A stretch of DNA of 64,000 nucleotides from Neorhizobium sp. NCHU2750 (GTDB taxonomy: Bacteria; Pseudomonadota; Alphaproteobacteria; Rhizobiales; Rhizobiaceae): positions 2,232,001 through 2,296,000 of the forward strand of contig NZ_CP030827.1 in the NCBI RefSeq assembly GCF_003597675.1. Direction: 5' to 3'. The notes beneath the pieces are model-generated. The model did not search any database and was not told the DNA's origin. It saw only the letters and a program-made list of their open reading frames with translations. Each line of letters begins with the position of its first letter. Position 1 is the first letter of the stretch. Position numbers and translations under genes: made by a program. Shown here one piece after another: positions 47,206 through 62,158 of this stretch.

Positions 47206-47736
47206 TCAATGCACGGTGAGGCTTCCCAGCTCGTCGACCAGGCTTTTGCGCGCCCGGTTGACGCGGCTTTTCACCGTGCCGACCTCGCAGCGGCAGATCC
47301 GCGCCGTCTCGTCATAGCTGCTACCGAATGAAATCAGGAGCAGCGCCTGACGCACCCCGCCGGGCATCCTATCGAGCGCCTCCTCCATCTCGATCCTGCG
47401 GATCGCCCAGTCCTGCGACGGAGGCACTCCGAGTACCGCGACAAGCGCATCCGGCAGGCCCACCTGTTCGCGCTGCCGCACCCTGTAGGCGGTGCAGAAC
47501 GTGTTGCGCATGATGGTGAAAAGCCATGACTTGAGTGCCGTGCCTGGACGGAACTGCCCGGAGGCCGAAAGCGCCTTCAACAGCGTGTCCTGAACCAGAT
47601 CCTCGACATCGCCGCGCGGCCCGACAAGACGTCGGGCAAAGCGCGTCAATGCCGGTATCTGTGCAGCAATATTCCGCTCGACCTCGGCTCGTGTGCCATC
47701 GCCGAGCGGTGCTGCATCACGTCGCTGCATACCCAT
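47206..47736 (-). CDS. ECF sigma factor, EcfG-like
   Basis: 176-residue sigma-70-family factor with only regions 2 and 4. Region 2 contains DVEDLVQDTLLKALSASGQF and SWLFTIMRNTFCTAYR; region 4 has SYDETARICRCEVGTVKSRV, the -35 recognition helix. The wording FRPGT..KSWLFTIMRNTF is typical of EcfG-group sigma factors and their paralogues, which run the alphaproteobacterial general stress response. No NepR-like anti-sigma gene lies next to it, so it may be a secondary EcfG. The ATG at 47736 has GGAGG seven bases upstream. A near match to an EcfG promoter (GCAAC-N16-CGTT) lies upstream at 47760-47784, which would allow control by stress sigma factors. Confidence 0.86.
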   Translation of the reverse strand: MGMQRRDAAPLGDGTRAEVERNIAAQIPALTRFARRLVGPRGDVEDLVQDTLLKALSASGQFRPGTALKSWLFTIMRNTFCTAYRVRQREQVGLPDALVAVLGVPPSQDWAIRRIEMEEALDRMPGGVRQALLLISFGSSYDETARICRCEVGTVKSRVNRARKSLVDELGSLTVH

Positions 47737-47783
47737 CCTCACTCCTCCATTTGTCGGAAAACGAAGGACACCCCCATGCGTTG

Positions 47784-47803
47784 CCGTACGGAACCGTACG
47801 GAA
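47784..47803. repeat. Tandem duplicated palindrome in a divergent promoter region
   Basis: CCGTACGGAA occurs twice in direct tandem, and each copy contains the perfect palindrome CCGTACGG. It lies between the ECF sigma gene and the divergent DUF6894 gene, in position to be an operator for either. Confidence 0.65.
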
Positions 47804-48113: not shown

Positions 48114-48830
48114 TCAGCTGAACGGCCCAAGCAGCCGAAAATATTCCCGTTCCGCCTCGCCATAGGCATCGCGGGCGAATTCCTCCAGCGCCGGCCGGTC
48201 GCGCACGATGATCATGCCGCGTTCGGAATAGATCAGCTTGCGCCCTTCGAGCATATGCAATGCGGTCGTCACACTCGGGCGGCGGACCGCCAGCATGATC
48301 GACAGGAACTCGTGTGTCAGGCTGATCTCGTCGCCATCGGTACGGTCGTGGCACATCAGGATCCACCGTGCCAGCCGCTCATCGATATGGTGGACGGCAT
48401 TGGACAGCGACGTATAGGCGCCCTGCACCGAAAGCGCCTGCACATATTTTCCAAGCAGCGCCTTCAGCCCCGGATCCTCGTCGAGAAAGCGTTTCAACAC
48501 GCTTGCCGCGATCCGGTAGCCATCCCCCTGCACCTGCATGAAGATCGAGAATGGATCGCTGCCAGCATCCAGAACCACGGCGGCCGGCGTCATTCCGTCG
48601 CGACCGAAAATGCCGATCTCCGCATGCTGCCCCTGCGGCGAGCGCGCCACGATCGAGGCGATGCCGGTCTCGGGGAAATAGGCGTAATCAGCCTCCTCAT
48701 GCGGCTCGGAAAGTTCGAAACCGCGAGGAAGCTCGACGAATTCGAGATTGCTGGAGAAGGCGGCGAAGCTGTCAGGCGACATGAGCCGGAGCAGATTGTT
48801 GCGGACCGCCGATTGCCGAATGTCACCCAT
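48114..48830 (-). CDS. Crp/Fnr-family transcriptional regulator 1
   Basis: 238 residues. A cNMP-binding-type beta-roll spans about 25-115 (FVELPRGFELSEPHEEADYA ... GIASIVARSPQGQHAEIGIF). A long helix follows, then a C-terminal Crp winged helix (about 165-225) with LTHEFLSIMLAVRRPSVTTA. The Fnr cysteine cluster is absent, so it does not sense oxygen by an iron-sulfur cluster, and the arginine-serine phosphate loop of true Crp is not evident. It is a paralogue of the gene at 49394-50113 and lies in a stress-related block. Its ligand and targets are unknown. Confidence 0.88.
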   Translation of the reverse strand: MGDIRQSAVRNNLLRLMSPDSFAAFSSNLEFVELPRGFELSEPHEEADYAYFPETGIASIVARSPQGQHAEIGIFGRDGMTPAAVVLDAGSDPFSIFMQVQGDGYRIAASVLKRFLDEDPGLKALLGKYVQALSVQGAYTSLSNAVHHIDERLARWILMCHDRTDGDEISLTHEFLSIMLAVRRPSVTTALHMLEGRKLIYSERGMIIVRDRPALEEFARDAYGEAEREYFRLLGPFS

Positions 48831-49032: not shown

Positions 49033-49413
49033 TTGCCAGATAAGCTCATACTGCTCCTCGAAGACCAGCCGCTGATCTCCCTCGATATCGAGGAAGCGCT
49101 CGTGGAAAAGGGCATGCGCAATCTCGTCACGCTGCGCAGCCGCAAGGAAGCGCTCGACTGGCTTTCGCAATCCTCGCCGGATTTCGTGCTTCTCGATCTC
49201 TATCTGGATGATGGCGATAGCCAGCCGGTCCTCGAGCGTTTGCAGCAGGCCGGCATTCCCTTCATGATCTATACCGGAAGCGAAAGACCATCCGAATGGG
49301 ATGCCAGCCTGTTTGAGGGCAGCGAATGGATGAGCAAGCCCGGAGATCCGGATGCGCTCGCAGACCGGATCAAGACCAGGCTTGCACCATCATCTAGGCC
49401 GAGCGTCGGGTAA
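49033..49413 (+). CDS. Single-domain response regulator (receiver only)
   Basis: 126-residue CheY-like receiver without an output domain. Acidic pair in LLLEDQPLIS (residues 10-11), phosphoacceptor D55 in FVLLDLYLDD, threonine/serine switch in MIYTGSE and the conserved lysine in WMSKPGDPD. It probably works as a phosphate shuttle or sink, or as an adaptor in a phosphorelay. The start is a TTG at 49033; there is no in-frame ATG upstream. Its last 20 bases overlap the 3' end of the convergent Crp/Fnr gene 2. In Alphaproteobacteria, receivers like this often tune the PhyR-EcfG stress pathway; that is an inference from the neighbours. Confidence 0.82.
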   Translation: MPDKLILLLEDQPLISLDIEEALVEKGMRNLVTLRSRKEALDWLSQSSPDFVLLDLYLDDGDSQPVLERLQQAGIPFMIYTGSERPSEWDASLFEGSEWMSKPGDPDALADRIKTRLAPSSRPSVG

Positions 49414-50113
49414 TATCCTCGACGCTGCCGAACAGCCGCTCGTACTCGCGCTCCGCACCACCGTATGAATCGGCGGCGAAGCGCTCCAGCGCCTTGCGGT
49501 CGCGCACGATGATTGTGCCGCGATGCGAATAGATCAGCTGCTTTCCCTCCAGTACATGCAATGCCACCGTCACGCTCGGGCGACGCACGGACAGCATGAT
49601 CGCCAGGAACTCGTGCGTCAGGTCGATCGCATCGCCGTCCACCCGGTCGTGGCACATCAATATCCACCGCGCCAGACGCTCGTCGACGGGATGAATGGCA
49701 TTCGACAGCGCGGTAAAGGCCGCCTGGCTCAGCGCCACATGCGCCCATCGGCTCAACAGGCTTTTGACCTCCGGACGCGCCTCGATGATGTTGCGCATGA
49801 TCGCGATCGGCACGCGCACGCCGCGTCCCGGCACCTGCATGACGACGAGATAGGGCGTATCGGCAGCGCCGAGCGCGATCGAGGCCGGGCTCACGCCCTC
49901 GCGGCCGAGAAGGCCGATCTCGGTGCGCTTGCCGGACGGCGACGTCACGACAGTCGAGATCACCCCCGAAAGCGGGAAATAGCAGTATTCGAGCGGTTCG
50001 CCCGGCGCCGAGAGCACGAAGCCTTGGGGAAGATTGATCGGCTGCAGGACAGGTTCCAGCGCCGTGTAATCCTCATGAGAAAGAAGTGCCAAGAGTTTGT
50101 TCTGGTCTCGCAT
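49394..50113 (-). CDS. Crp/Fnr-family transcriptional regulator 2
   Basis: 239-residue paralogue of the regulator at 48114-48830, with the same plan: beta-roll (YCYFPLSGVISTVVTSPSGK, TEIGLLGREGVS), dimer helix, and the winged helix LTHEFLAIMLSVRRPSVTVA. The long central stretch ERLARWILMCHDR is almost the same in both proteins. No Fnr cysteines. Upstream, at 50355-50379 on the same strand, is a perfect EcfG-type promoter, so this regulator is likely part of the general stress regulon. The leader would be about 235 bases. The 3' end overlaps the convergent receiver gene by 20 bases. Confidence 0.88.
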   Translation of the reverse strand: MRDQNKLLALLSHEDYTALEPVLQPINLPQGFVLSAPGEPLEYCYFPLSGVISTVVTSPSGKRTEIGLLGREGVSPASIALGAADTPYLVVMQVPGRGVRVPIAIMRNIIEARPEVKSLLSRWAHVALSQAAFTALSNAIHPVDERLARWILMCHDRVDGDAIDLTHEFLAIMLSVRRPSVTVALHVLEGKQLIYSHRGTIIVRDRKALERFAADSYGGAEREYERLFGSVEDITRRSA

Positions 50114-51852: not shown

Positions 51853-52242
51853 ATGACTGAACTCGAATATCTCAACGACTGTCCCAATATCCTTCTTCTC
51901 GAAGATGACCTTCTGCTTGCGATGGATATGGAAGACCATCTCTTGCAGACAGGCCACAAGATCGTCGGCCCCTTCGGCCGCATAGCCGATGCGCTCGATG
52001 CAATACCGCGCAACGATCTTGCCGGTGCGATCGTCGACCTCAATCTCCATGGCGAACTGTCATTCCCGGTCATCGAGGCGCTGCAGAAACTCTCCGTGCC
52101 GGTGATCATCTGCAGCGGCTATGCCGAACTGCCGGAACTGAAGAGCCGCCTCGCCGGCCTGCCGCTCCTGCCCAAGCCTTGGAACGTCCAGAAGCTCGAC
52201 CGCCTGATGCAGGAAACCTTCGGCGTCGGCACCAACGCCTGA
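51853..52242 (+). CDS. Single-domain response regulator (receiver only)
   Basis: 129-residue CheY-like receiver. Acidic pair in ILLLEDDLLLAMD (near 17-18), phosphoacceptor D62 in AGAIVDLNLHG, and the lysine in LLPKPWNVQK. The extra N-terminal MTELEYLNDCPN is short and there is no output domain. Such receivers regulate by binding partners or draining phosphate from kinases. The convergent neighbour is a receiver-HWE kinase gene, and a hairpin between them (52254-52278) ends both. It may be controlled by the EcfG-like promoter at 51747-51771. Confidence 0.88.
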   Translation: MTELEYLNDCPNILLLEDDLLLAMDMEDHLLQTGHKIVGPFGRIADALDAIPRNDLAGAIVDLNLHGELSFPVIEALQKLSVPVIICSGYAELPELKSRLAGLPLLPKPWNVQKLDRLMQETFGVGTNA

Positions 52243-52253
52243 CACCTGATGGG

Positions 52254-52278
52254 CGATATCAGCCCACGGCTGATATCG
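52254..52278. terminator. Hairpin between convergent receiver and HWE-kinase genes
   Basis: Perfect 11-bp arms CGATATCAGCC (52254-52264) and GGCTGATATCG (52268-52278) with a CAC loop. The hairpin overlaps the last codons of the HWE-kinase gene. No T-run on either side, so it may work with Rho or protect 3' ends. Confidence 0.6.
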
Positions 52279-53269
52279 GAAAGCGGATCGTGCAGGTAAG
52301 GCCGGTCTCGGCATAATCCATCTCGACTTCGCCCTGCAGTTCGTAATTGATGCTGCGCTGGATCAGCGTCGTGCCGAAACCTTCCTCCTCGGGCGGCACC
52401 ACCGCCGGACCGTCGACCTCCGTCCATTCGAGCGTCACCACGCCGTCGACGACCGTCCAGCCGACTTTCACATAGCCGGCATCATGCGCCAGCGCGCCAT
52501 ATTTGACCGCATTCGTCGTCAGCTCGTTGATCACCATGCTGAAAGCGAGGGCAGCCTTGGGGTTGAGCATCACAAGCGGCCCCGGCGTTGTCCTGAAACG
52601 CTCTCCCTTGCCTTGAACATAAGGCGCAAGCGTGCGCCGAACGACCTCCACCAGTTCCGCCTGGCTCCAGTTCGTCTCGAACAGCAGCGCATGGGCATCC
52701 GCCATCGCCCTCAGCCGGCCGAGCAGGTTCTGGGAGTAATTCTCTACCGTCGTGCTGTTCTTCGCCGTCCGCCTGACCAGCGACATCACCATCGCCATCG
52801 TGTTCTTCACCCGATGGCTGAGTTCGCGGACCAAGAGTTCCTTCTGCTGCTGAACCCGGCGATATTCCGCCTTTTCGCGCGCCTCCTTGAGCGCCCGCTC
52901 CACCGCCGCCGGCAGACGGATGAGGCGCTGCTTCAGCACATAATCGGTAGCGCCGCGACGGAAGGATTCGATCGCCACCTCTTCGCCGAGAACACCGGAT
53001 ACGAAGATAAACGGAATATCCGGCGCATCCCGATGCGCCATCTCGAGCGCCGACATGCCGTCGAAATCCGGCAGCGAGAAATCGGCCAGGATCAGGTCGA
53101 AACGACCGGCTTCGAGTGCCGAGACGAAACCGCTGCGGTTTTCCGCCCGCAGGATTTCCGGCTGCGGATCCATCCGCTCAAGATGTTCGCGGATCAGCTC
53201 CGCATCGAGCGGGCTGTCTTCCAGCATGAGGATTGTCGGACGGTCCACGGTTACCTCGGCACCTGTCAT
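52259..53269 (-). CDS. Hybrid receiver-HWE/HisKA_2 histidine kinase
   Basis: 336 residues. An N-terminal receiver (about 12-125) has acidic residues in ILMLEDSP, phosphoacceptor D63 in LILADFSLPD, and the lysine in DYVLKQRL. A kinase core follows with the H-box ELSHRVKNTMAM (phospho-histidine H152) and an HWE/HisKA_2-type ATP domain: NELTTNAVKYGAL (N box), LEWTEVDGP (the W-x-E of the HWE class) and GFGTTLIQRSI. It is soluble, with no membrane segments. This class often feeds PhyR in the general stress response. It is the third gene of the phytochrome operon, overlapping the receiver gene upstream by four bases (ATGA). Confidence 0.92.
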   Translation of the reverse strand: MTGAEVTVDRPTILMLEDSPLDAELIREHLERMDPQPEILRAENRSGFVSALEAGRFDLILADFSLPDFDGMSALEMAHRDAPDIPFIFVSGVLGEEVAIESFRRGATDYVLKQRLIRLPAAVERALKEAREKAEYRRVQQQKELLVRELSHRVKNTMAMVMSLVRRTAKNSTTVENYSQNLLGRLRAMADAHALLFETNWSQAELVEVVRRTLAPYVQGKGERFRTTPGPLVMLNPKAALAFSMVINELTTNAVKYGALAHDAGYVKVGWTVVDGVVTLEWTEVDGPAVVPPEEEGFGTTLIQRSINYELQGEVEMDYAETGLTCTIRFPISAVG

Positions 53270-53715
53270 GATTTCTTGTATCCCGGCGGCGGCTCGTTGA
53301 GGATCGCCCAGAACACCCCGAGATCCTGAATGGCCTTGAAGAACTCGTTGAATTCCACCGGCTTCACCACGAAGGCATTGACCCCGAGCTCGTAGCTTCT
53401 CACCAGATCCTGCTCCTCGCGCGACGAGGTCAGCATGACGATCGGGATATGGCGCAGCTTGTCGTGCTTCTTGACCTTTTCCAGCACCTCCAGCCCATCG
53501 ACCTTGGGAAGCTTCAGATCGAGCAGCACCACGGTTGGATCGCCGTCCGGCCGCCCTTCATGCATGCCGGTGCCGAACAGGTAGTCGATCGCTTCCGCAC
53601 CGTCGCGGGCAATGACGATGTCGTTGGCAAGCTGGCATTTTTCGAGCGCTGCAAGTGTCAGTTCGAGATCCCGCGGACTGTCTTCCACGAGCAATATGGG
53701 ACGTAGTTCAGGCAA
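53266..53715 (-). CDS. Response regulator, CheY-like, of the bacteriophytochrome operon
   Basis: 149-residue single receiver of the type that commonly follows bacteriophytochromes. Acidic residues in ILLVEDSPRD (11-12), phosphoacceptor D66 in TVVLLDLKLPKVDG, serine switch in VMLTSSREEQ, and lysine in AFVVKPVEF. I set the start at a TTG at 53715, which overlaps the phytochrome stop codon and has GGAAAGGG upstream; an ATG at 53784 would add 23 unconserved residues. It should accept phosphate from the phytochrome and could pass it on to the HWE kinase or compete with it. Confidence 0.9.
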   Translation of the reverse strand: MPELRPILLVEDSPRDLELTLAALEKCQLANDIVIARDGAEAIDYLFGTGMHEGRPDGDPTVVLLDLKLPKVDGLEVLEKVKKHDKLRHIPIVMLTSSREEQDLVRSYELGVNAFVVKPVEFNEFFKAIQDLGVFWAILNEPPPGYKKS

Positions 53716-55906
53716 TGGCGCGCCCTTTCCTTTCAGGCGTGGGCAGGGCGAAGACGAAGGTGGCCCCCTTGTCGACTTCCCCACTGGCAGTAATGCTTCC
53801 GTTATGGCGCTCGACGATTCGGCGCACCAGCGCGAGGCCTATCCCGGTTCCCTCGAAATCCTCCGCCCTCTGCAGCCGCTGGAAGACGCCGAACAGCTTG
53901 CCGGCATAGGTCATGTCGAAACCGACACCATTATCCGAGACGCTGAACTTGACGATGTCACCATCCAGCGACCCGTCGATCATAATCTTCGCCGGCGCAC
54001 GTGGCCTTGTATATTTCACCGCATTGTCGATGAGATTGAACCACACCTGGCGAAGCAGCGTCGCGTCACCTTGAGCCGATGGCAGCCTTGCGATCGACCA
54101 TTCGATATCGCGCCCCTCGGCATTGATCATCACCGACTTCACCACTTCAGCAACGAGCTTGTTCATGTCGACCTCCTTGATGGCGATCGACGTGCGGCCA
54201 AGCTGCGAGAAGTTGAGAAGGTCGTCCACCAGACGCCCCGCCGCCAGCGCGGAATCGGAAATGTTGTGCAGGTAATGCCTGGATTTTTCGTCGAGCGCCT
54301 GCTCGCGCTCGCGCAGCAGCTGGGCAAAACCGACGATGTGGCGGAACGGTGCTCTGAGATCATGGGAAACGGAATAGGAAAAGGCTTCGAGTTCCTTGTT
54401 GGAACGCTGCAACTCGCCGGAGAGTTCCGCCAGTTCCTCCGCCTTTCTGAGTACGATGCCGACGATTGCGCCGCGAAGGTCGCGCGCCGCCGAAAGTTCG
54501 GCCTCGCTCCATTCGGGTGCCGTCAGATGAACCTGCTCGCGCCAGGCATCGAATGAGCGGCGCGGATGGATGCGTCCCTCCTCCCGCACCACCTTGTGCG
54601 GATCGCCACCCCAGTTGACGGTGGTGATCACTTCCGGCCGGAACCAGATCAGCCAGCTCGGATAGAGTTCGGAAATGCGGATGGCCACCATGCCGCTGGC
54701 CTCGGCGGCGAATGCCTCGCCAGCACGAAAATCACGGGCAAGCGATGACGTCTGGTAGATATCCTCGCTGACATTCTCCTTCAGCCAATCCACCAGCGAA
54801 CGCACATGCGCCTCGTCCGGCACCATGCCGACAGCAAGATAATCGTCCTCCGTCACGATCACCGCACCTCTGGCACGCACCTGCGCCAGGAGATCGTCCT
54901 CTACCTGAATGAGCCCGCGCGGCCAGCTGGCGCCGGCACTCATCGACGCCAAAAGCCGGCTCGAAATACGCCCGAGAGCGACCCTGCTTTCCGCATCGAC
55001 CGCATGGAGAAGCGCCGAAACCCGCATGGCAAGCGATTGCACGACGAAATCGCAGATATCGCGCAGCGTGTTCGACACCACCTTCGCCGCCGCGCTATGG
55101 CAGGACACAAGCCCCCAGAGCCGCCCGTCGATGATGATGGAAACCGACATCGACGATGCCGTTCCCATATTGCGCATATATTCCAGATGCACCGGCGAGA
55201 CGCTGCGCAATTGCGAAAGACTGAGATCGAGCGGCTCTCCCGTGACCGGATTGAGCGCCGGCTCGATCGGCACCGGCCGATAATTCGCATCGGGAATGAG
55301 CCGCACCCGGCTCGAGGCATAGAGCGCCCTCGCCTGCGCCGGGATATCGGATGCCGGAAAACGCAGGTCGAGATAGGATGGCAGCGCCCCGTTTGCCGCT
55401 TCCGCCACGACATGACCGTTCCAGTTCCTGTCGAAACGATAGACAAGCACCCGGTCGAAGCCCGTCAGGTTCTCGATGAAGGTCGCAGCCGCCGTCAGCG
55501 ACCCTTCGACGTCTGACTGTCCGGACAGGATCTGGGCGAAGTCGCGCAGGCGGGACAGCAGGCCATCCGTATCGTCGGCCGCGTTGCGCTCGACCTCGAC
55601 GACGATCAGACCGCCGGAGCGATGCGCCGTCACCTGCAGATCACTCGCCGCGACACGCATCTGCAGTGTCGGTTCGGATGTTGCCTGCCACGCCGCGAGC
55701 CGATCCGACAAGGGCTGGAGAAGAGCCGGCAGCCTCTCGCCGGGGCGGACGACCTCGCCGATGAAACCGGCCAGATTGGCGCTCGCCTGCGCCACGCTCA
55801 GATCCTCGGGGTGGAGGCTCAAAAGCGCGCCATACGGCTGGATCGCACCGGGAATATGGATCGGCTCCCGCGCACAGGCTTCCAGATCTGAGACGGTAAG
55901 GCTCAA
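53708..55906 (-). CDS. Bacteriophytochrome histidine kinase
   Basis: 732-residue red/far-red photoreceptor kinase. The PAS-GAF-PHY sensory module shows a biliverdin-binding cysteine at residue 11 in EACAREPIHIPGAIQPYG, the PASDIP motif (184-189), the chromophore histidines H240 (SPVHLEYMRNMG) and H270 (LVSCHS), and the PHY tongue PRRSF (448-452). The kinase has H515 in YSVSHDLRAPFRHIVGFAQ and an ATPase domain with NLIDNAVKY, DNGVGFDM and GTGIGLAL. All key residues are present, so it should be a functional light sensor. A TTG at 55906 is preferred, with GAGGA six bases upstream; an ATG at 55975 would put 23 odd residues before it. The heme oxygenase gene for biliverdin is not in this window. 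Confidence 0.94.
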   Translation of the reverse strand: MSLTVSDLEACAREPIHIPGAIQPYGALLSLHPEDLSVAQASANLAGFIGEVVRPGERLPALLQPLSDRLAAWQATSEPTLQMRVAASDLQVTAHRSGGLIVVEVERNAADDTDGLLSRLRDFAQILSGQSDVEGSLTAAATFIENLTGFDRVLVYRFDRNWNGHVVAEAANGALPSYLDLRFPASDIPAQARALYASSRVRLIPDANYRPVPIEPALNPVTGEPLDLSLSQLRSVSPVHLEYMRNMGTASSMSVSIIIDGRLWGLVSCHSAAAKVVSNTLRDICDFVVQSLAMRVSALLHAVDAESRVALGRISSRLLASMSAGASWPRGLIQVEDDLLAQVRARGAVIVTEDDYLAVGMVPDEAHVRSLVDWLKENVSEDIYQTSSLARDFRAGEAFAAEASGMVAIRISELYPSWLIWFRPEVITTVNWGGDPHKVVREEGRIHPRRSFDAWREQVHLTAPEWSEAELSAARDLRGAIVGIVLRKAEELAELSGELQRSNKELEAFSYSVSHDLRAPFRHIVGFAQLLREREQALDEKSRHYLHNISDSALAAGRLVDDLLNFSQLGRTSIAIKEVDMNKLVAEVVKSVMINAEGRDIEWSIARLPSAQGDATLLRQVWFNLIDNAVKYTRPRAPAKIMIDGSLDGDIVKFSVSDNGVGFDMTYAGKLFGVFQRLQRAEDFEGTGIGLALVRRIVERHNGSITASGEVDKGATFVFALPTPERKGRAIA

Positions 55907-56040
55907 GGCTGGTCCTCGACATAGGCAGCTAGTGATGCGGATTGCCGAGATGAACTGTGATCGGCGGCGGATCACCCGAACATAGGCAAGTGAAGACTAA
56001 AGTAAACCCGCCCGCAGCAGGTCACCAGTCAGGGACACAC

Positions 56041-56448
56041 TCAGAAGCCGACGGAAAATTTTCGCGCGACCCAGTAGCCGACGCTTGCGGCAAAACCCGT
56101 CAGGACAGTCCCCCAGGCCATGTCGACGGCGCTGACGGCGGGCGACCAGTTTTTCAGCGTCGCGAGATTGGTCATGTCATAGGTGCCATAGGCGATAAGG
56201 CCGAGAATGCCACCCGCGACGGCCGCTGTCGTCCAGCTGCCCGAGACGAGCGCCGGCTGCACCGCGAAATAGACAATGCCCGCCACATAGACGAGGTAGA
56301 ACAGTCCGGCGGCAATGAAATTCGGCTGGGCAAGCAGAAGCTCGCCGATCCGGCTCTTGTAGAACCCCGTCGCCACTGTGCCGAGCCAGAGAAAATCGAG
56401 ACAGAGAAAAGCGATGGCCGTGCCGATATAGGCCAGGATATAGGTCAT
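56041..56448 (-). CDS. DUF2177 membrane protein of the ChrR regulon
   Basis: 135-residue inner-membrane protein with four helices: YILAYIGTAIAFLCLDFLWL, IAAGLFYLVYVAGIVYFAV, AVAGGILGLIAYGTYDMTN and VDMAWGTVLTGFAASVGYWV. It matches the DUF2177 family, which is repeatedly found beside rpoE-chrR loci. It lies 15 bases after the chrR stop codon on the same strand, so it is likely the third gene of the rpoE-chrR operon. Function unknown. Confidence 0.85.
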   Translation of the reverse strand: MTYILAYIGTAIAFLCLDFLWLGTVATGFYKSRIGELLLAQPNFIAAGLFYLVYVAGIVYFAVQPALVSGSWTTAAVAGGILGLIAYGTYDMTNLATLKNWSPAVSAVDMAWGTVLTGFAASVGYWVARKFSVGF

Positions 56449-56463
56449 CGCTCGTCCTTTCGT

Positions 56464-57135
56464 TCAGATCTTCAGGATCGGCTGCATCAGTCTGACGATC
56501 CAGCTCGAGAACTTCAGCGGTGCTTCGGTCACCGCCAGGCAGATGCAGTCCTCGCCTTCCGTCGCATGCGGCGTGTGCAGGAGATCGCCATCGGCCTCCT
56601 CGATATCGCCACGTGCAAACAGATCGTCGCGATCGCGAAAACTGCCCGAAAGCACCAGCGTCAACTCGCGGCCTTCATGCGTATGCTCCGGCACCGGCTT
56701 TCCGGCCGGGATGCGCAACAGCCGAACCTGCGTTTCGCGATCCCCGGTATCGATCAGGATCTGGTAGGCCCCACGTCCGAGCGCGCGCCATTTGAGATCG
56801 GCAAGATCGCCGCCGACATAGGATCGCAGCGGTTCGGGAATGACTGTCGGCGCCGATGCCCGCTGAACGCGCGGCGCAATTTCCTCGACCTTGATATCGA
56901 GCGCTTTCGCCCTGAACCGCGCCCAAGCATCATCCTCGCTGCCGGCCTCGGCATCGAGTTGGGGAGAAAGCTTGTCCAGAAGTACGCCGGCAGCGCCCTC
57001 CATCGCGGCAAGCCGGCCTCGGCATTCAGGGCAGAGCGCCAAATGGCTCGCAACCGCAAGGCTCCATCCTTCGCTGAGTCTGCCTGACGCGTAGTCGATC
57101 AGGAAATCGTCGCCGATATGGTGTTTGACGCTCAT
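56464..57135 (-). CDS. chrR: Zinc-binding anti-sigma factor ChrR
   Basis: 223 residues with the two-domain plan of ChrR. The N-terminal zinc anti-sigma domain has H6 and H31xxxC35xxC38 (HLALCPEC), the same positions as in the Rhodobacter protein. The C-terminal cupin-like domain has H151, H153 and E157 (PEHTHEGRE) with a further histidine pair near 187-190, the metal site needed for release of the sigma factor upon singlet oxygen. It should hold RpoE inactive until singlet oxygen or organic peroxide stress. The start ATG overlaps the rpoE stop by four bases. Confidence 0.95.
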   Translation of the reverse strand: MSVKHHIGDDFLIDYASGRLSEGWSLAVASHLALCPECRGRLAAMEGAAGVLLDKLSPQLDAEAGSEDDAWARFRAKALDIKVEEIAPRVQRASAPTVIPEPLRSYVGGDLADLKWRALGRGAYQILIDTGDRETQVRLLRIPAGKPVPEHTHEGRELTLVLSGSFRDRDDLFARGDIEEADGDLLHTPHATEGEDCICLAVTEAPLKFSSWIVRLMQPILKI

Positions 57136-57716
57136 AGCCGACCGTCCAATGCTGAACGCAGCTTTTCGAAGGCAAGGCGGATGCGCGATTTGACGGTGCC
57201 GAGCGGAACGCCGAGATCATGGGCGATCGTCGCATGCGACGCCTCGTCGAAAAATGCGCGGCGCAGCACATCGAGCTGTTCCGCCGGCAGCGTCGCCATC
57301 GCGCCACGCAGCAGATTGGCTTCCTGAAGCTGCTGGAATTCGAGATCGGCCGGCGCCACATCGTCCGCGACGAAGGCAGGATCGTCCATGTCGAATTCCG
57401 GGCGCTTGCGCCGATAGGCATCGATCCTGATGTTGCGGGCAATCGTGTAGATCCAGGCCGAGACATTGCCGCGCGCAGGGTCGAACTGCGCAGCCTTTGT
57501 CCAGACCGAAGCCATGGTCTCCTGCATCAGTTCCTCGGCCGCCTGCCGATCCTTTGTCTTCGCCGCCATGAAGGTGCGGATACGCGGCGCGTAGAAGCGG
57601 AAGATGGTCTCGAAGGCATCGACGCTGCGCTCGCGCCCGACGATGGAAAGCAACCGCACCATCTCGCGCTGCGCGAGATCGTCGGCCGACAAGCCATCGG
57701 AGTTTTGTGTGTTCAT
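57132..57716 (-). CDS. rpoE: ECF sigma factor RpoE (ECF11, singlet-oxygen response)
   Basis: 194-residue ECF sigma factor. Region 2 reads DRQAAEELMQETMASVWTKA and SAWIYTIARNIRIDAYRR; region 4 reads ATIAHDLGVPLGTVKSRIRL. The overlap with chrR shows it is the partner of that anti-sigma factor, as in Rhodobacter sphaeroides. The ATG at 57716 (MNTQNSDGLS) is the best start because the long in-frame extension upstream covers the promoter at 57815-57844 and has no sigma-like sequence. Its own promoter and the divergent regulon promoter share the same pattern, so it is probably autoregulated. Confidence 0.94.
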   Translation of the reverse strand: MNTQNSDGLSADDLAQREMVRLLSIVGRERSVDAFETIFRFYAPRIRTFMAAKTKDRQAAEELMQETMASVWTKAAQFDPARGNVSAWIYTIARNIRIDAYRRKRPEFDMDDPAFVADDVAPADLEFQQLQEANLLRGAMATLPAEQLDVLRRAFFDEASHATIAHDLGVPLGTVKSRIRLAFEKLRSALDGRL

Positions 57717-57814
57717 CCCGAGCCCATGCACTGCCCGCCCGCCGGGCCTTGATGCCGCGGACCGCCTCTTGTGCCATCTATAAGCCGAGATAGGAATGCT
57801 CAGGTTCATGGCAA

Positions 57815-57844
57815 GCACTACGGCGGGCCAAACGGACCGGATCA
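57815..57844 (-). promoter_or_regulatory. ECF11-type promoter for rpoE-chrR
   Basis: Minus strand: TGATCC (57844-57839), an 18-base spacer, then TAGTGC (57820-57815). It matches the TGATCC -35 box and TA-containing -10 box known for RpoE/ChrR promoters, and the spacing is the same as in two other sites in this window (57868 and 62129). Confidence 0.78.
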
Positions 57845-57867
57845 CGCCAGATTCGGAAATTTTCCAC

Positions 57868-57897
57868 AGATCCATTTAGAACTTCATTACGTAGTCA
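57868..57897 (+). promoter_or_regulatory. ECF11-type promoter for the amine oxidase-DUF1365-cfa operon
   Basis: AGATCC (57868-57873), an 18-base spacer, then TAGTCA (57892-57897), 40 bases upstream of the oxidase gene. One base differs from TGATCC in the -35 box. It is back-to-back with the rpoE promoter. Confidence 0.75.
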
Positions 57898-57936
57898 TGT
57901 TTTGAGGAACGTGACGATGCACGCGAGGATGGTGGA

Positions 57937-59328
57937 ATGACAGTGTCGACCGGCAGGACGCAGCGTCAGACGGCAAGGATTGCCGTCATCGGCTCCGGCA
58001 TCAGCGGCCTGTCCGCAGCATGGCTTCTGTCGAAGACGTGCGATGTCACGCTCTACGAAAGCGCCGGCCGGCTTGGCGGCCATGCCCAAACGGTGAATGT
58101 CAGGATCGACGGCAGCGATGTCCCGATCGATACAGGCTTCATCGTCTATAACGAGGTCAACTACCCCAATCTCGTCGCCCTCTTCGATCATCTCGACGTG
58201 CCGACCACAGCCTCCGACATGTCCTTTGCCGCCTCGATGGATGGTGGCCGCTTCGAATATAGCGGCACCGGCCTGAAGGGCCTGCTCGGCCAGAAGAAAA
58301 ACGCGCTGCGCCCCCGCTTCTGGCACATGCTGCGCGACGTGATGAAATTCTACAGGCACGCCCCTGCCCTGCTCGCCCGGCCCGACACCGAAGACCTTAC
58401 CCTCGGCGACTATCTCCAGCGGGAAGCATATTCCTCCGCATTCATCCATGACCACCTGATGCCGATGGGCGCGGCCATCTGGTCGATGACGGCGCGCGAC
58501 ATGGCAAACTATCCGCTGCACGCCTTCCTGCGCTTCTTCGTCAATCACGGTCTCCTGCTTCTGTCGGGACGCCCGCAATGGCGAACGGTCGAAGGCGGCA
58601 GCCGCGAATACGTCCGGCGCGTCGCCGCTGATTTCAGCGGTACGGTGAGGCTCAATGCCAGGATCGCTTCCATCCGCCGCAACCCCGCTTCGGTGACTGT
58701 CACCGATACAGGCGGCCATTCCGACACATTCGACGAGGTGGTGATCGCCGCCCATGCCGACGAGGCGCTCTCCATGCTCTCCGATGCGGATGGCGAGGAA
58801 CGCGACACCCTCGGCGCCTTTTCCTACACGCCGAACCGGGCCGTGCTGCACAGCGATCCGAACCTGATGCCGAAGACCCGCGCTGTCTGGTCGAGCTGGA
58901 ATTATCTCAGTGCCCGCAACGGCAATGAACCCAAAGGCAATCACGCCAACGGTAACGAGGCCCTGTGCGTCACCTACTGGATGAACCGCCTGCAGAGGCT
59001 CAAGACGAGCCGAGATCTGTTCGTCACCCTCAATCCGCATCGCGCGCCACAGGCCGAGCTCGTCCACGGCATCTATGACTACACCCACCCGCTTTTCGAT
59101 GGCCGTGCGCTTGCGGCGCAGGGCAGGCTCTGGCAGCTCCAGGGCCGCAACCGCACCTGGTTCTGCGGCGCCTATTTCGGCAGCGGCTTCCATGAGGACG
59201 GGTTGCAGTCGGGGCTTGCCGTGGCCGAGGCCCTGGCGGGCAACCGCCGCCCCTGGACGGTCGAAAACGAGTCCGGCAGGATCAGCATCGCCCGGCCTGC
59301 CCCGGCGCTTCGGGAAGCCGCCGAATGA
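57937..59328 (+). CDS. FAD-dependent amine-oxidase-type protein of the RpoE-ChrR regulon
   Basis: 463-residue FAD-binding protein. The dinucleotide fold is IAVIGSGISGLSAAWLLSK at residues about 12-30, followed by LYESAGRLGGHAQTVNV. The C-terminus closes with GAYFGSGFHEDGLQSGLAVA, which contacts the flavin. Proteins of this type (COG2907) stand beside DUF1365 and cyclopropane-synthase genes in ECF11 regulons; the reaction is unknown, and fatty-acid or carotenoid-like substrates are guessed. The ATG at 57937 follows GAGGATGGTGG. It overlaps the next gene by four bases (ATGA) and is led by the promoter at 57868-57897. Confidence 0.9.
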   Translation: MTVSTGRTQRQTARIAVIGSGISGLSAAWLLSKTCDVTLYESAGRLGGHAQTVNVRIDGSDVPIDTGFIVYNEVNYPNLVALFDHLDVPTTASDMSFAASMDGGRFEYSGTGLKGLLGQKKNALRPRFWHMLRDVMKFYRHAPALLARPDTEDLTLGDYLQREAYSSAFIHDHLMPMGAAIWSMTARDMANYPLHAFLRFFVNHGLLLLSGRPQWRTVEGGSREYVRRVAADFSGTVRLNARIASIRRNPASVTVTDTGGHSDTFDEVVIAAHADEALSMLSDADGEERDTLGAFSYTPNRAVLHSDPNLMPKTRAVWSSWNYLSARNGNEPKGNHANGNEALCVTYWMNRLQRLKTSRDLFVTLNPHRAPQAELVHGIYDYTHPLFDGRALAAQGRLWQLQGRNRTWFCGAYFGSGFHEDGLQSGLAVAEALAGNRRPWTVENESGRISIARPAPALREAAE

Positions 59329-60131
59329 GCGTTCCCTCCAGCCTCTATACCGGAGACGTCGTCCACACGCGCCAGCGACCGAAGGCGCACAGCCTGCGCT
59401 ACAGCGTCTTCTCACTGCTGATCGATCTAGACGAACTCGCCGATCTGGACCGCTCGCTGAAACTCTTTTCGGTCGACCGGCGCGGTCTGTTCAGCTTCTG
59501 GCAGAAGGATCACGGCTCAGGCAGCGGCACCGGCCTCAAGGCCTGGGTCGCTGGGCAGCTCGCCGATGCCGCCATCGAAACGGATGGGCTGCGGGTCAGA
59601 ATGCTCTGCTATCCGCGCATCTTCGGCTATGTCTTCAATCCGCTGACGGTCTATTTCTGCTATGGCCGCGACGACGTGCTGCGGGCCATCATCTACGAGG
59701 TCTGCAACACCTTCCACGAGCGCCATTCCTACATCATTCCGGTCACCGGAAGCGGCACTGCCAAGGATGAGCCGGTCAGCCATTCCTGCGGCAAGGATCT
59801 CTACGTCTCGCCCTTCGTGCCGATGGACTGCCGCTACGATTTCTCGATCCGCCCGCCATCCGACCGGGTGCGCATCGCCATCCGCGAATCCGATGATAAC
59901 GGCATGCTGCTCTACGCCATGTTCCAGGGGGAGCGAAAACCGCTCACCGACCGCACTCTGGCACTCGCCTTCTTCCGCTATCCGCTGATGACCGTGAAGG
60001 TCACCGCAGCCATCCATTGGGAGGCGCTGAGACTGTGGCTGAAGCGGGTTCCCGTCTACAGGCACACGCGTGCCGCAGAGCCGCGCTCGGCCACGATCGT
60101 CACCCGAACAGAAACGACGGAGACACGCTGA
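59325..60131 (+). CDS. DUF1365 family protein
   Basis: 268-residue protein. DUF1365 signatures are SLYTGDVVHTRQRPKAHSLR at the N-terminus, LCYPRIFGYVFNPLTVYFCY (near 90), EVCNTFHERHSYIIP and SPFVPMDCRYDF. No signal peptide or clear membrane helix. Function unknown; the unvarying pairing with FAD oxidase and cyclopropane synthase genes suggests a role in altering membrane lipids under singlet-oxygen stress. It overlaps both neighbours (ATGA at the start, TGATG at the end), so the three products are coupled. Confidence 0.92.
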   Translation: MSVPSSLYTGDVVHTRQRPKAHSLRYSVFSLLIDLDELADLDRSLKLFSVDRRGLFSFWQKDHGSGSGTGLKAWVAGQLADAAIETDGLRVRMLCYPRIFGYVFNPLTVYFCYGRDDVLRAIIYEVCNTFHERHSYIIPVTGSGTAKDEPVSHSCGKDLYVSPFVPMDCRYDFSIRPPSDRVRIAIRESDDNGMLLYAMFQGERKPLTDRTLALAFFRYPLMTVKVTAAIHWEALRLWLKRVPVYRHTRAAEPRSATIVTRTETTETR

Positions 60132-61342
60132 TGACAGATATCGACCAGAAAATCGAACTGCCGATCCCGTCCTTCTCGCTGTCGGAACGCATGCTGTGCC
60201 GCTGGGCGGCAAGGCTTGCCGCGGGCCAGTTGACCTTGCGCTTCCCGAGCGGACGCGAGGCGCGCTTTGCCGGCGATCAGGCCGGACCTTCGGCAACGAT
60301 CGCCCTCAACGACATGAAGACCGTGCGCCGACTGCTTTCCGGTGGCAGCCTCGGCTTTGCGACATCCTATCTGCGCGGCGAGTGGGAAACGCCCGATCTC
60401 GCCGACGTTCTCGACCTGGCACTGGCCAACGAAGCCCGCTGGTCGAGCGTCATGGCCGCAAGTCCGCTCGCCTCGGCGATCGCTCGCCTGCGTCACCGCC
60501 TCAACCGCAATTCCAGGGCCGGCAGCCGCCGCAACATCGCCTTCCACTACGATCTCGGCAACGCCTTTTATCGGCTCTGGCTGGACGAGACGATGACCTA
60601 TTCGTCGGCACTCTTTTCCGATCCGCGCCAGAGCCTCGCCGAGGCCCAGACGGCAAAATACCAGCGCATCATCGACACCCTGCAGATCACCGGGGATGAC
60701 CATGTACTCGAAATCGGCTGCGGCTGGGGCGGCTTTGCCGAACAGGCGATCCGCGCCACCGGCTGCCGCGTCACCGGCCTCACCCTGTCGAAGGAACAGG
60801 CCGCCTTTGCAAAAAACCGCCTGCGCGATGCCGGTCTTGCGGATCGCGCCGATATCCGCCTCGAAGACTATCGCGATTGCCAAGGCACCTTTACGAAAAT
60901 CGTCTCGATCGAAATGTTCGAGGCCGTCGGCGAGGAAAACTGGCCCCTCTATTTCGATCGCGTCCGCTCCCTTCTCGCAGAAGGCGGAAAGGCGCTCGTC
61001 CAGTCGATCACCATTGCCGAGGATCGTTTCGACCACTATCGCAGCCATGCGGATTTCATCCAGGCCTATATCTTTCCCGGCGGCATGCTGCCGAGTGTCG
61101 ACGCCTTCGAGGCGCAGGCCGGCAAGGCAGCCCTCACCGTCGACGACCGTTTCCGTTTCGGCCGCGATTACGAGCGCACGCTGATCCTCTGGGACAAGGC
61201 CTTCCGCGACGCCTGGCAGCGCATCGCCCCGCTCGGCTTCGACGACCATTTCCACCGCATGTGGCACTATTACCTGCAATATTGCGCAGCAGGCTTCCGC
61301 TCCGGCCGCCTCGACGTGGTGCAGTTCACCCTGTCTCGCTAA
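60131..61342 (+). CDS. cfa: Cyclopropane-fatty-acyl-phospholipid synthase-type methyltransferase
   Basis: 403-residue SAM-dependent enzyme that adds a methylene group to unsaturated acyl chains of phospholipids, or a related fatty-acid-modifying enzyme. The catalytic domain has NIAFHYDLGNAFYRLWLDET, YSSALFSDP, SAM motif LEIGCGWGGFAEQA (near 195), and SIEMFEAVGEENWP. In Rhodobacter the homologous RpoE-dependent gene belongs to the singlet-oxygen regulon and has been linked to furan fatty acids. The start ATG at 60131 overlaps the previous stop by one base. The last four bases overlap the convergent SDR gene. Confidence 0.93.
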   Translation: MTDIDQKIELPIPSFSLSERMLCRWAARLAAGQLTLRFPSGREARFAGDQAGPSATIALNDMKTVRRLLSGGSLGFATSYLRGEWETPDLADVLDLALANEARWSSVMAASPLASAIARLRHRLNRNSRAGSRRNIAFHYDLGNAFYRLWLDETMTYSSALFSDPRQSLAEAQTAKYQRIIDTLQITGDDHVLEIGCGWGGFAEQAIRATGCRVTGLTLSKEQAAFAKNRLRDAGLADRADIRLEDYRDCQGTFTKIVSIEMFEAVGEENWPLYFDRVRSLLAEGGKALVQSITIAEDRFDHYRSHADFIQAYIFPGGMLPSVDAFEAQAGKAALTVDDRFRFGRDYERTLILWDKAFRDAWQRIAPLGFDDHFHRMWHYYLQYCAAGFRSGRLDVVQFTLSR

Positions 61343-62106
61343 CCCTTGCGTACCATGCGACGGGTAATCGCAAGGCTTGCCCGATAGGGCAAAGCCGCAA
61401 GCAGCTTGGCCGCCACCGCCATCCTCCACGGAAAGACGATCTCGAAGCGCGAACCGGAAAGCCCCTTGACGATGGCATGCGCAGCCTCGTCTTCGCTGAT
61501 CAGGAACGGCATCGGAAAGTCGTTCTTCTTCGTCAGCGGCGTGTCGACAAACCCCGGATTGATCACCTGCAGCTTCACGCCCTGTGAGCCGAGCTGTGGC
61601 TGAAGTGCCTCGCAGAGATTGATCAGCGCCGCCTTCGTCGCCCCATAGATACCGCCGCCGGGAAGGCCGAGATAACCGGCAACCGATGCGACAACGGCGA
61701 TATGGCCCGACCGCCTGGCAATCATCGGCCCCATCACCGCCTCCAGCGCATTGCCGGTTCCGACCACATTGAGGCCGACGAGATCGGCCAGCGCCCCGGC
61801 ATCGAACTCGCCTGCGCTCTCGCGGATATAATTGCCGGCGCAAAACAGCGCGAGGTCGATCGGCCCGAGCATCTGCTCTATGCCGCGTACGGCATCCTTG
61901 AGTGCCTGACGATCGGTGACATCGAGCGGATAGGCATGGATGGCGCCCGGTCGCTCCGCCACCAGCGCGTCGAGCTTGTCGGCCGAACGGGCACTGACCG
62001 CTACGATGAAGCCCTCATCCGCAAGCCGCAGAGCCACCGCCCGGCCGATCCCTGAACTCGCGCCCGTGACCCAGGCAATCTTTCCAGTCCTGCTTCTGAC
62101 CATCAT
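61339..62106 (-). CDS. Short-chain dehydrogenase/reductase of the RpoE-ChrR regulon
   Basis: 255-residue SDR. The NAD(P) motif is VTGASSGIGRAVAL (residues about 14-27), LDVTDRQAL marks the coenzyme site, FCAGN follows the NNAG position, and the catalytic YxxxK is in IYGATKAAL with the serine in VVASVAGYLG. COG0300-like, with a C-terminal stretch (MPFLISEDEAAHAIVKGL) typical of membrane-linked SDRs. The ATG at 62106 has GGAGG five bases upstream. An RpoE-type promoter at 62129-62158 precedes it, so it should be induced together with the cfa operon, with which it overlaps by four bases at the 3' end. Confidence 0.9.
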   Translation of the reverse strand: MMVRSRTGKIAWVTGASSGIGRAVALRLADEGFIVAVSARSADKLDALVAERPGAIHAYPLDVTDRQALKDAVRGIEQMLGPIDLALFCAGNYIRESAGEFDAGALADLVGLNVVGTGNALEAVMGPMIARRSGHIAVVASVAGYLGLPGGGIYGATKAALINLCEALQPQLGSQGVKLQVINPGFVDTPLTKKNDFPMPFLISEDEAAHAIVKGLSGSRFEIVFPWRMAVAAKLLAALPYRASLAITRRMVRKG

Positions 62107-62128: not shown

Positions 62129-62158
62129 TTTCTACGCAGGCAAGCGGCGAACGGATCT
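62129..62158 (-). promoter_or_regulatory. ECF11-type promoter for the SDR gene
   Basis: Minus strand: AGATCC (62158-62153), an 18-base spacer, then TAGAAA (62134-62129), 22 bases upstream of the SDR start codon. The -35 box and spacing are the same as at 57868-57897. Confidence 0.72.

Follow-up and report, generated by a model that had tools for sequence, protein, structure and literature searches.

A bacteriophytochrome cassette adjoining an ECF11 rpoE-chrR locus in one clade of a Rhizobiaceae genus

The sequence examined is a stretch of 64,000 nt from the genome of Neorhizobium sp. NCHU2750 (contig NZ_CP030827.1, positions 2,232,001 to 2,296,000), called the window below, in which genes were classed by Pfam, TIGRFAM and best match in the Protein Data Bank (PDB). 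On its minus strand the genes rpoE, chrR and DUF2177, predicted to serve a singlet-oxygen response, are directly followed by those for a bacteriophytochrome (bphP), a response regulator and a histidine kinase with receiver and HWE domains (REC-HWE). An earlier note, made from the sequence alone, had described a bacteriophytochrome and its two partners adjoining rpoE-chrR-DUF2177 on the same strand; families and coordinates confirm this, and every named gene was found and classed as claimed. The order is shared by seven genomes, all from one clade of the genus, and this clade-wide arrangement is real. It is best explained, with a probability of about 0.68, by two separately transcribed light-stress modules, paired by common descent and kept side by side.

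The first module has the features of a standard ECF11 (RpoE-ChrR) system. The rpoE gene (57716-57132, minus strand) encodes an ECF11-type sigma factor of 194 aa with Sigma70 r2 and r4 regions, starting from an ATG at 57716 in a frame open to 57875. It is overlapped, by the sequence ATGA, by chrR (57135-56464, minus), coding for an anti-sigma factor with a zinc-binding N-terminus and a cupin C-terminus (TIGR02451, 217.5 bits at a cut-off of 124.5; Cupin_7). A DUF2177 membrane protein (56448-56041, minus; PF09945, E 1e-44) is encoded next. The regulon genes mentioned in the earlier note are present, but they do not follow the two modules, as had been written there: they lie upstream of rpoE and are mostly divergent. 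An FAD-dependent amine-oxidase-like protein (57937-59328; PF01593), a DUF1365 protein (59325-60131; PF07103) and a member of the cyclopropane-fatty-acid synthase (CFA) family (60128-61342; PF02353) are encoded on the plus strand, and only the short-chain dehydrogenase (SDR) gene beyond them (62106-61339; PF00106) is on the minus strand.

A scan with the ECF11 motif of Table 3 in PMC5507510, scored out of 10, located it in the form TGATCC-N16-CGTA before rpoE (57819-57844, minus), where comparison within the genus also revealed it, and in the form AGATCC-N16-CGTA before the FAD gene (57868-57893, plus) and the SDR gene (62133-62158, minus). These three sites compare with 0.17 expected in the window, and one of 100 shuffled sequences gave three. 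The overlap of sigma factor and ChrR genes, the autoregulatory motif, and a core of FAD oxidase, CFA and SDR genes with the motif before the first and the last of them are all those of ECF11 RpoE-ChrR systems. In a sample of 57 genomes of the genus, 29 have a chrR closely related to that of the window (E 1e-84 or better), for a total of 30 chrR loci: the motif before rpoE scores 10/10 in 24 of them and 9 in another five, so that 29 of the 30 loci reach at least 9/10; the remaining locus, with a score of 8, is the second chrR copy of genome G021.

Over the entire genome 17 motif sites were detected, compared with 5 in a reversed control, so that a fair share of them is due to chance. Further plausible targets, whose downstream frames were named by eye, are a photolyase, a ferrochelatase, a GTP cyclohydrolase I and a TetR-type regulator; the sites concerned include G000:C1:1956646 (L094) for the photolyase and 1982656 (L095) for the GTP cyclohydrolase I, where the motif lies 259 nt ahead. 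The site preceding the ferrochelatase gene hemH (G000:C1:2838600, L099) was followed through the genus by fetching the hemH loci (L191-L220) of 30 of the 57 genomes, two of which were not anchorable. A motif scoring at least 9 was found in 9 of 12 genomes with window-type chrR versus 1 of 16 without it (Fisher P 0.0003, relatedness uncorrected). On these grounds hemH is a predicted sigma-E target and, if truly so, would point to protoporphyrin as a source of stress in such bacteria; PMC4336711 places a ferrochelatase paralogue of Shewanella under RpoE2-ChrR. Elsewhere the genome holds three more PHY genes, one heme oxygenase gene and a second ChrR homologue (33% identity).

The second module is a phytochrome cassette. 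The bphP gene (55906-53708, minus) encodes, according to Pfam, a PAS-GAF-PHY-HisKA-HATPase protein, whose best PDB match (E 1e-157) is 5hsq, an entry titled just 'Bacteriophytochrome protein' which we take to be Agp1. Translation probably starts from the TTG at 55906, giving 732 aa, rather than from a GTG at 55975. When aligned to 5hsq, the protein keeps the N-terminal Cys and the PASDIP and PRxSF motifs, presumably the chromophore-related ones, with the Cys as chromophore Cys. The single-domain response regulator gene (53724-53266, minus) has an uncertain start, its frame being open from 53784, and its product best matches 5brj (E 8e-75), presumably the response-regulator partner of Agp1. A PAS-GAF-PHY region bearing these motifs and a HisKA kinase followed by a response regulator mark the protein as Agp1-type. 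The REC-HWE kinase (53269-52259, minus; Response_reg and HWE_HK) has as best PDB match 5epv, a blue-light-activated histidine kinase.

A gene for a small receiver protein (51853-52242, plus), convergent with that of the kinase, is probably a fourth member of the cassette, because a homologue accompanies cassettes elsewhere in the genus: of 17 cassettes located elsewhere, 13 have it within the same 20-kb stretch, and in nine of these it adjoins the REC-HWE gene. Its Response_reg match (E 1e-4) is under the Pfam cut-off and its matches to PhyR-type receivers are weak, while the HWE domain of the kinase is clear. The same kind of phytochrome cassette is also found on a plasmid of Sinorhizobium sp. 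B11 (L221, 5566-7559), about 1.4 kb from genes annotated as kaiC and kaiB.

Within the genus sample, the cassette immediately follows DUF2177 on its strand in 7 of the 29 chrR genomes, namely the window's genome, G048, G038, G047, G019, G002 and G042. They are distinct at the species level and all belong to one clade, clade II. As the same order recurs in six further genomes, an arrangement unique to one strain is ruled out, and the adjacency goes beyond chance. Among named records (best 80 of 163), ten loci hold a phytochrome: six are of the Ochrobactrum type described below, and four, which correspond to four of the seven genomes above, have the adjacent arrangement (Shinella sp. UYSO24, isolates AFS087364 and AFS048116, and Pseudorhizobium pelagicum R1-200B4, L124). 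Named close relatives lacking bphP include Aliirhizobium wenxiniae and A. terrae. In genome G048 (L041) the bphP frame stops early and is either a pseudogene or an assembly fault: counted from the chromophore Cys it has 552 aa, whereas the other 22 rows measured have 719-731. The response regulator gene behind it is intact.

A tree of ChrR (30 rows) and one of response regulator and kinase (24 rows) split the genus in two in the same way, the genomes sampled in both falling on the same sides. Clade I, with 12 genomes in the ChrR tree, shows no adjacency. The 17 genomes of clade II with window-type chrR comprise seven with adjacent modules, one (G021) with both modules apart and nine with chrR only, so that the modules are adjacent in 7 of the 8 clade II genomes seen to hold both. 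Eight other clade II genomes have the cassette without window-type chrR (G004, G005, G012, G014, G025, G030, G046 and G053). For the nine chrR-only genomes all 21 listed PHY places (L077, L079 and 19 more) were fetched, and moved copies of the cassette were ruled out: 20 of the 21 match bphP at 30-35% and L077, at 48%, is a different cassette. These genomes therefore have no orthologous cassette. The eight closest relatives keep the order of the genes but have no bphP, response regulator or REC-HWE genes at this place: 29 to 91 nt separate the small receiver gene from DUF2177.

Because of this distribution in clade II and of the gene order shared with the relatives, the data fit a pairing that arose once, one or the other half being lost later. 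For the closest relatives, the trees are compatible with one bphP loss, two losses or a regain in the lineage of the window: the node of a six-gene tree bearing on the order of losses is supported by 32/60, the cassette tree groups the window with G042, G047 and G005 (80/84), and the ChrR tree groups it with G038 and G048 (92/91).

The region preceding bphP was analyzed in all seven adjacent loci, and in none of them does an ECF11 motif of 9/10 or better occur; at this threshold an ECF11 promoter of its own is rejected for bphP. The best scores within 330 nt ahead of the chromophore Cys range from 6 to 8 in the adjacent loci, and equally in 16 of the 17 cassettes located elsewhere, L078 not being anchorable. 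The same footprinting does recover hemH, another predicted regulon member. A sigma70-like element, TTTACT-N16-TATGTT, is found before bphP (55979-56006, minus) by comparison across cassettes: TTTAC(A/T)-N16-TAT is present in 7/7 adjacent loci and in 12/16 other cassettes, so that a promoter of its own seems to accompany the cassette whatever its location. The element is evident by comparison only, as it matches the sigma70 consensus at 8 of 12 positions in the window and a scan with a strict sigma70 rule returned no promoter in the region; from its recurrence we infer that it may be active as a promoter. The alignments do not support a regulatory link in cis from RpoE to bphP.

According to the favoured explanation, ChrR would hold RpoE back, and its removal by singlet oxygen or peroxide would free RpoE to transcribe its own operon, the FAD-DUF1365-CFA genes and the SDR gene. 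The second module would be a red/far-red phosphorelay, expressed constitutively from its own promoter, in which BphP passes phosphate to the response regulator and/or to the receiver of the REC-HWE kinase. Because no gene of this module encodes a DNA-binding domain, its output would be from protein to protein, likeliest into the PhyR-EcfG general stress response; that HWE kinases coordinate this response in alphaproteobacteria is stated in PMC12148442. The cassette would have joined rpoE-chrR once, in the ancestor of one clade of the genus, and either half could subsequently be lost. A gene for an EcfG-like sigma factor (PhyR_sigma2 match; 47206-47790, minus) is found 4.5 kb off the phytochrome cassette, a location which is suggestive only with respect to such an output. 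Two Crp-like genes (48114-48830 and 49394-50113) lie between them.

Several points weigh against two separate modules paired by descent. The PhyR-EcfG connection of the phytochrome module comes from general knowledge of the HWE family. Phytochromes are also found near rpoE-chrR in two further lineages, the Ochrobactrum type and an Ensifer megaplasmid, so that plain inheritance is not the full explanation. In the gap ahead of bphP in the window there is a bare TGATCC at 55974, without a matching -10 (8/10 overall), which could be a decayed ECF11 site. Finally, no terminator-like site was found between DUF2177 and bphP in any of the seven loci, where the gap is of about 130-240 nt, so that transcription could run on from the rpoE operon into bphP; this absence says little, because just 3 of 29 DUF2177 ends had any such site.

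The last point is the basis for viewing the locus as one functional unit, in which RpoE-driven transcription would run through rpoE-chrR-DUF2177 into the genes for bphP, response regulator and REC-HWE kinase, and cells under photooxidative stress would as a result make more of the red-light receptor. The common strand, the order conserved in seven genomes and the fact that an ECF11 factor drives bphO-bphP in Pseudomonas syringae (PMC5507510) agree with it. Read-through is nevertheless unlikely, considering the promoter-like element of bphP and the missing motif before it, the presence of the cassette without this neighbour in many species, and the lack of induction of the P. syringae bphOP promoter by singlet oxygen or tBOOH (PMC5507510). 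The link between light sensing and photooxidative defence suggested in the earlier note is thus borne out as a physical one, in seven genomes, while its functional side finds no support in the sequences preceding bphP or in the independent losses of the two halves.

The search was extended to a sample of 394 genomes of the family, with a ChrR cut-off of E 1e-30: 91 have ChrR, at least 154 have PHY genes and 51 have both; five further PHY places in ChrR-bearing genomes were also covered. In four of these 51, the window's genome, G243, G299 and G400, a PHY gene is found no more than 10 kb from chrR; they represent three genera, versus 0.24 expected (Poisson P about 0.002, with the 10-kb threshold chosen afterwards and the clustering of regulators ignored); recurrence in other lineages is therefore a mild statistical hint. 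Two of the four, G243 and G299, belong to the Ochrobactrum type, for which 6 of 12 loci (L131, L132, L134, L139, L140, L141; best 80 of 163) hold a phytochrome within the stretch fetched. This phytochrome, a PAS-GAF-PHY-HWE-REC protein with 29-30% identity to bphP, is encoded within about 4 kb of rpoE-chrR. In L131 (4990-11563), bphP of the HWE-REC type is divergent from a Crp-like gene, followed by a heme oxygenase gene and then by rpoE-chrR with an ECF11 motif; a TspO gene lies behind rpoE-chrR. In G400, on an Ensifer megaplasmid corresponding to a plasmid of Ensifer sp. PDNC004 (L224, 1-14084), the same kind of cassette is found some 4 kb past the FAD gene of a second rpoE-chrR-FAD-CFA locus, divergent in sequence (34% identity), with ECF11 motifs before rpoE and FAD. 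A heme oxygenase named in the record of this cluster is a 117-aa frame with no Pfam match, hence a remnant at most. Outside the family, none of 21 genomes with both PHY and ChrR (out of 145 bearing ChrR, in a class sample of 385) has them co-located, which says little because about 0.1 would be expected, by estimate.

These co-localisations, three lineages within the post hoc 10-kb distance, are what might be seen if light anticipated damage, BphP signalling altering RpoE/ChrR activity, directly or via the general stress response, and thereby pre-arming the regulon. PMC4618731 and PMC10383956 also cite work (Kumar 2012) reported to tie BphP1 of Azospirillum to tolerance of red-light photodynamic stress. 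Such anticipation is quite improbable, since no sequence feature joins the modules, no DNA-binding output is encoded and the two halves were lost independently; the zero count outside the family also speaks against it.

Just as speculative is the broader idea that bacteriophytochromes and the ECF11 response are recurrently drawn together through tetrapyrrole chemistry, the red-light receptor gauging ambient light during the alarm. The sigma factor would raise ferrochelatase, draining protoporphyrin, a photosensitiser, into heme; heme oxygenase would turn heme into biliverdin, which would load the receptor. If this were true, the Rhizobium-type operon, the Ochrobactrum bphP-heme oxygenase-rpoE-chrR arrangement, the Ensifer cluster and the P. 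syringae ECF11-bphOP link would be four solutions of one coupling. A pure accident of synteny, in which one insertion created neighbours retained like any others, fits the restriction to a single clade and the unrelated DnaJ-like and PAP2 genes conserved beside several of these loci, but is very unlikely in view of the separate co-localisations in other lineages of the family.

Non-photosynthetic bacteria hold both light receptors and singlet-oxygen defences. With the naturally paired locus and the sister species that lack one half or the other, one could ask by comparison if cells are readied by red light for photooxidative damage. The earlier note had regarded such a link as new. Among open-licence papers, none that links phytochromes to ChrR, RpoE or photooxidative stress was found to describe this gene order, a scope too narrow to establish priority; ECF11 control of bphO-bphP in P. 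syringae had already been published (PMC5507510).

In comparison with known systems, the first module resembles the RpoE-ChrR systems of Rhodobacter sphaeroides, Pseudomonas and Shewanella in the overlapping rpoE-chrR genes, the autoregulatory TGATCC-N16-CGTA, the FAD oxidase, CFA and SDR genes, and the motif before photolyase and ferrochelatase genes elsewhere in the genome; it differs in being followed by a phytochrome operon. The second module resembles Agp1 and its response regulator in sequence, domain order and response-regulator partner (5brj). Its organisation is that of the Azospirillum triad of bphP1, response regulator and hybrid kinase, described as a triad of two-component genes in PMC4618731, but there no rpoE-chrR occurs within about 9 kb in the plasmid region examined. 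The Ochrobactrum-type loci share a phytochrome within about 4 kb of rpoE-chrR, although it is of another kind and divergent, with a Crp-like gene (in L131 also a heme oxygenase gene) in between. The closest regulatory parallel, a tie between an ECF11 factor and a bacteriophytochrome, is offered by P. syringae DC3000, where the ECF11 factor PSPTO_1043 binds before PSPTO_1900-bphO-bphP, its overexpression raises bphO 12.85-fold and its deletion lowers promoter activity (PMC5507510). There the loci are unlinked and the ECF11 motif precedes the operon, whereas in the window they are neighbours and bphP has no such motif before it.

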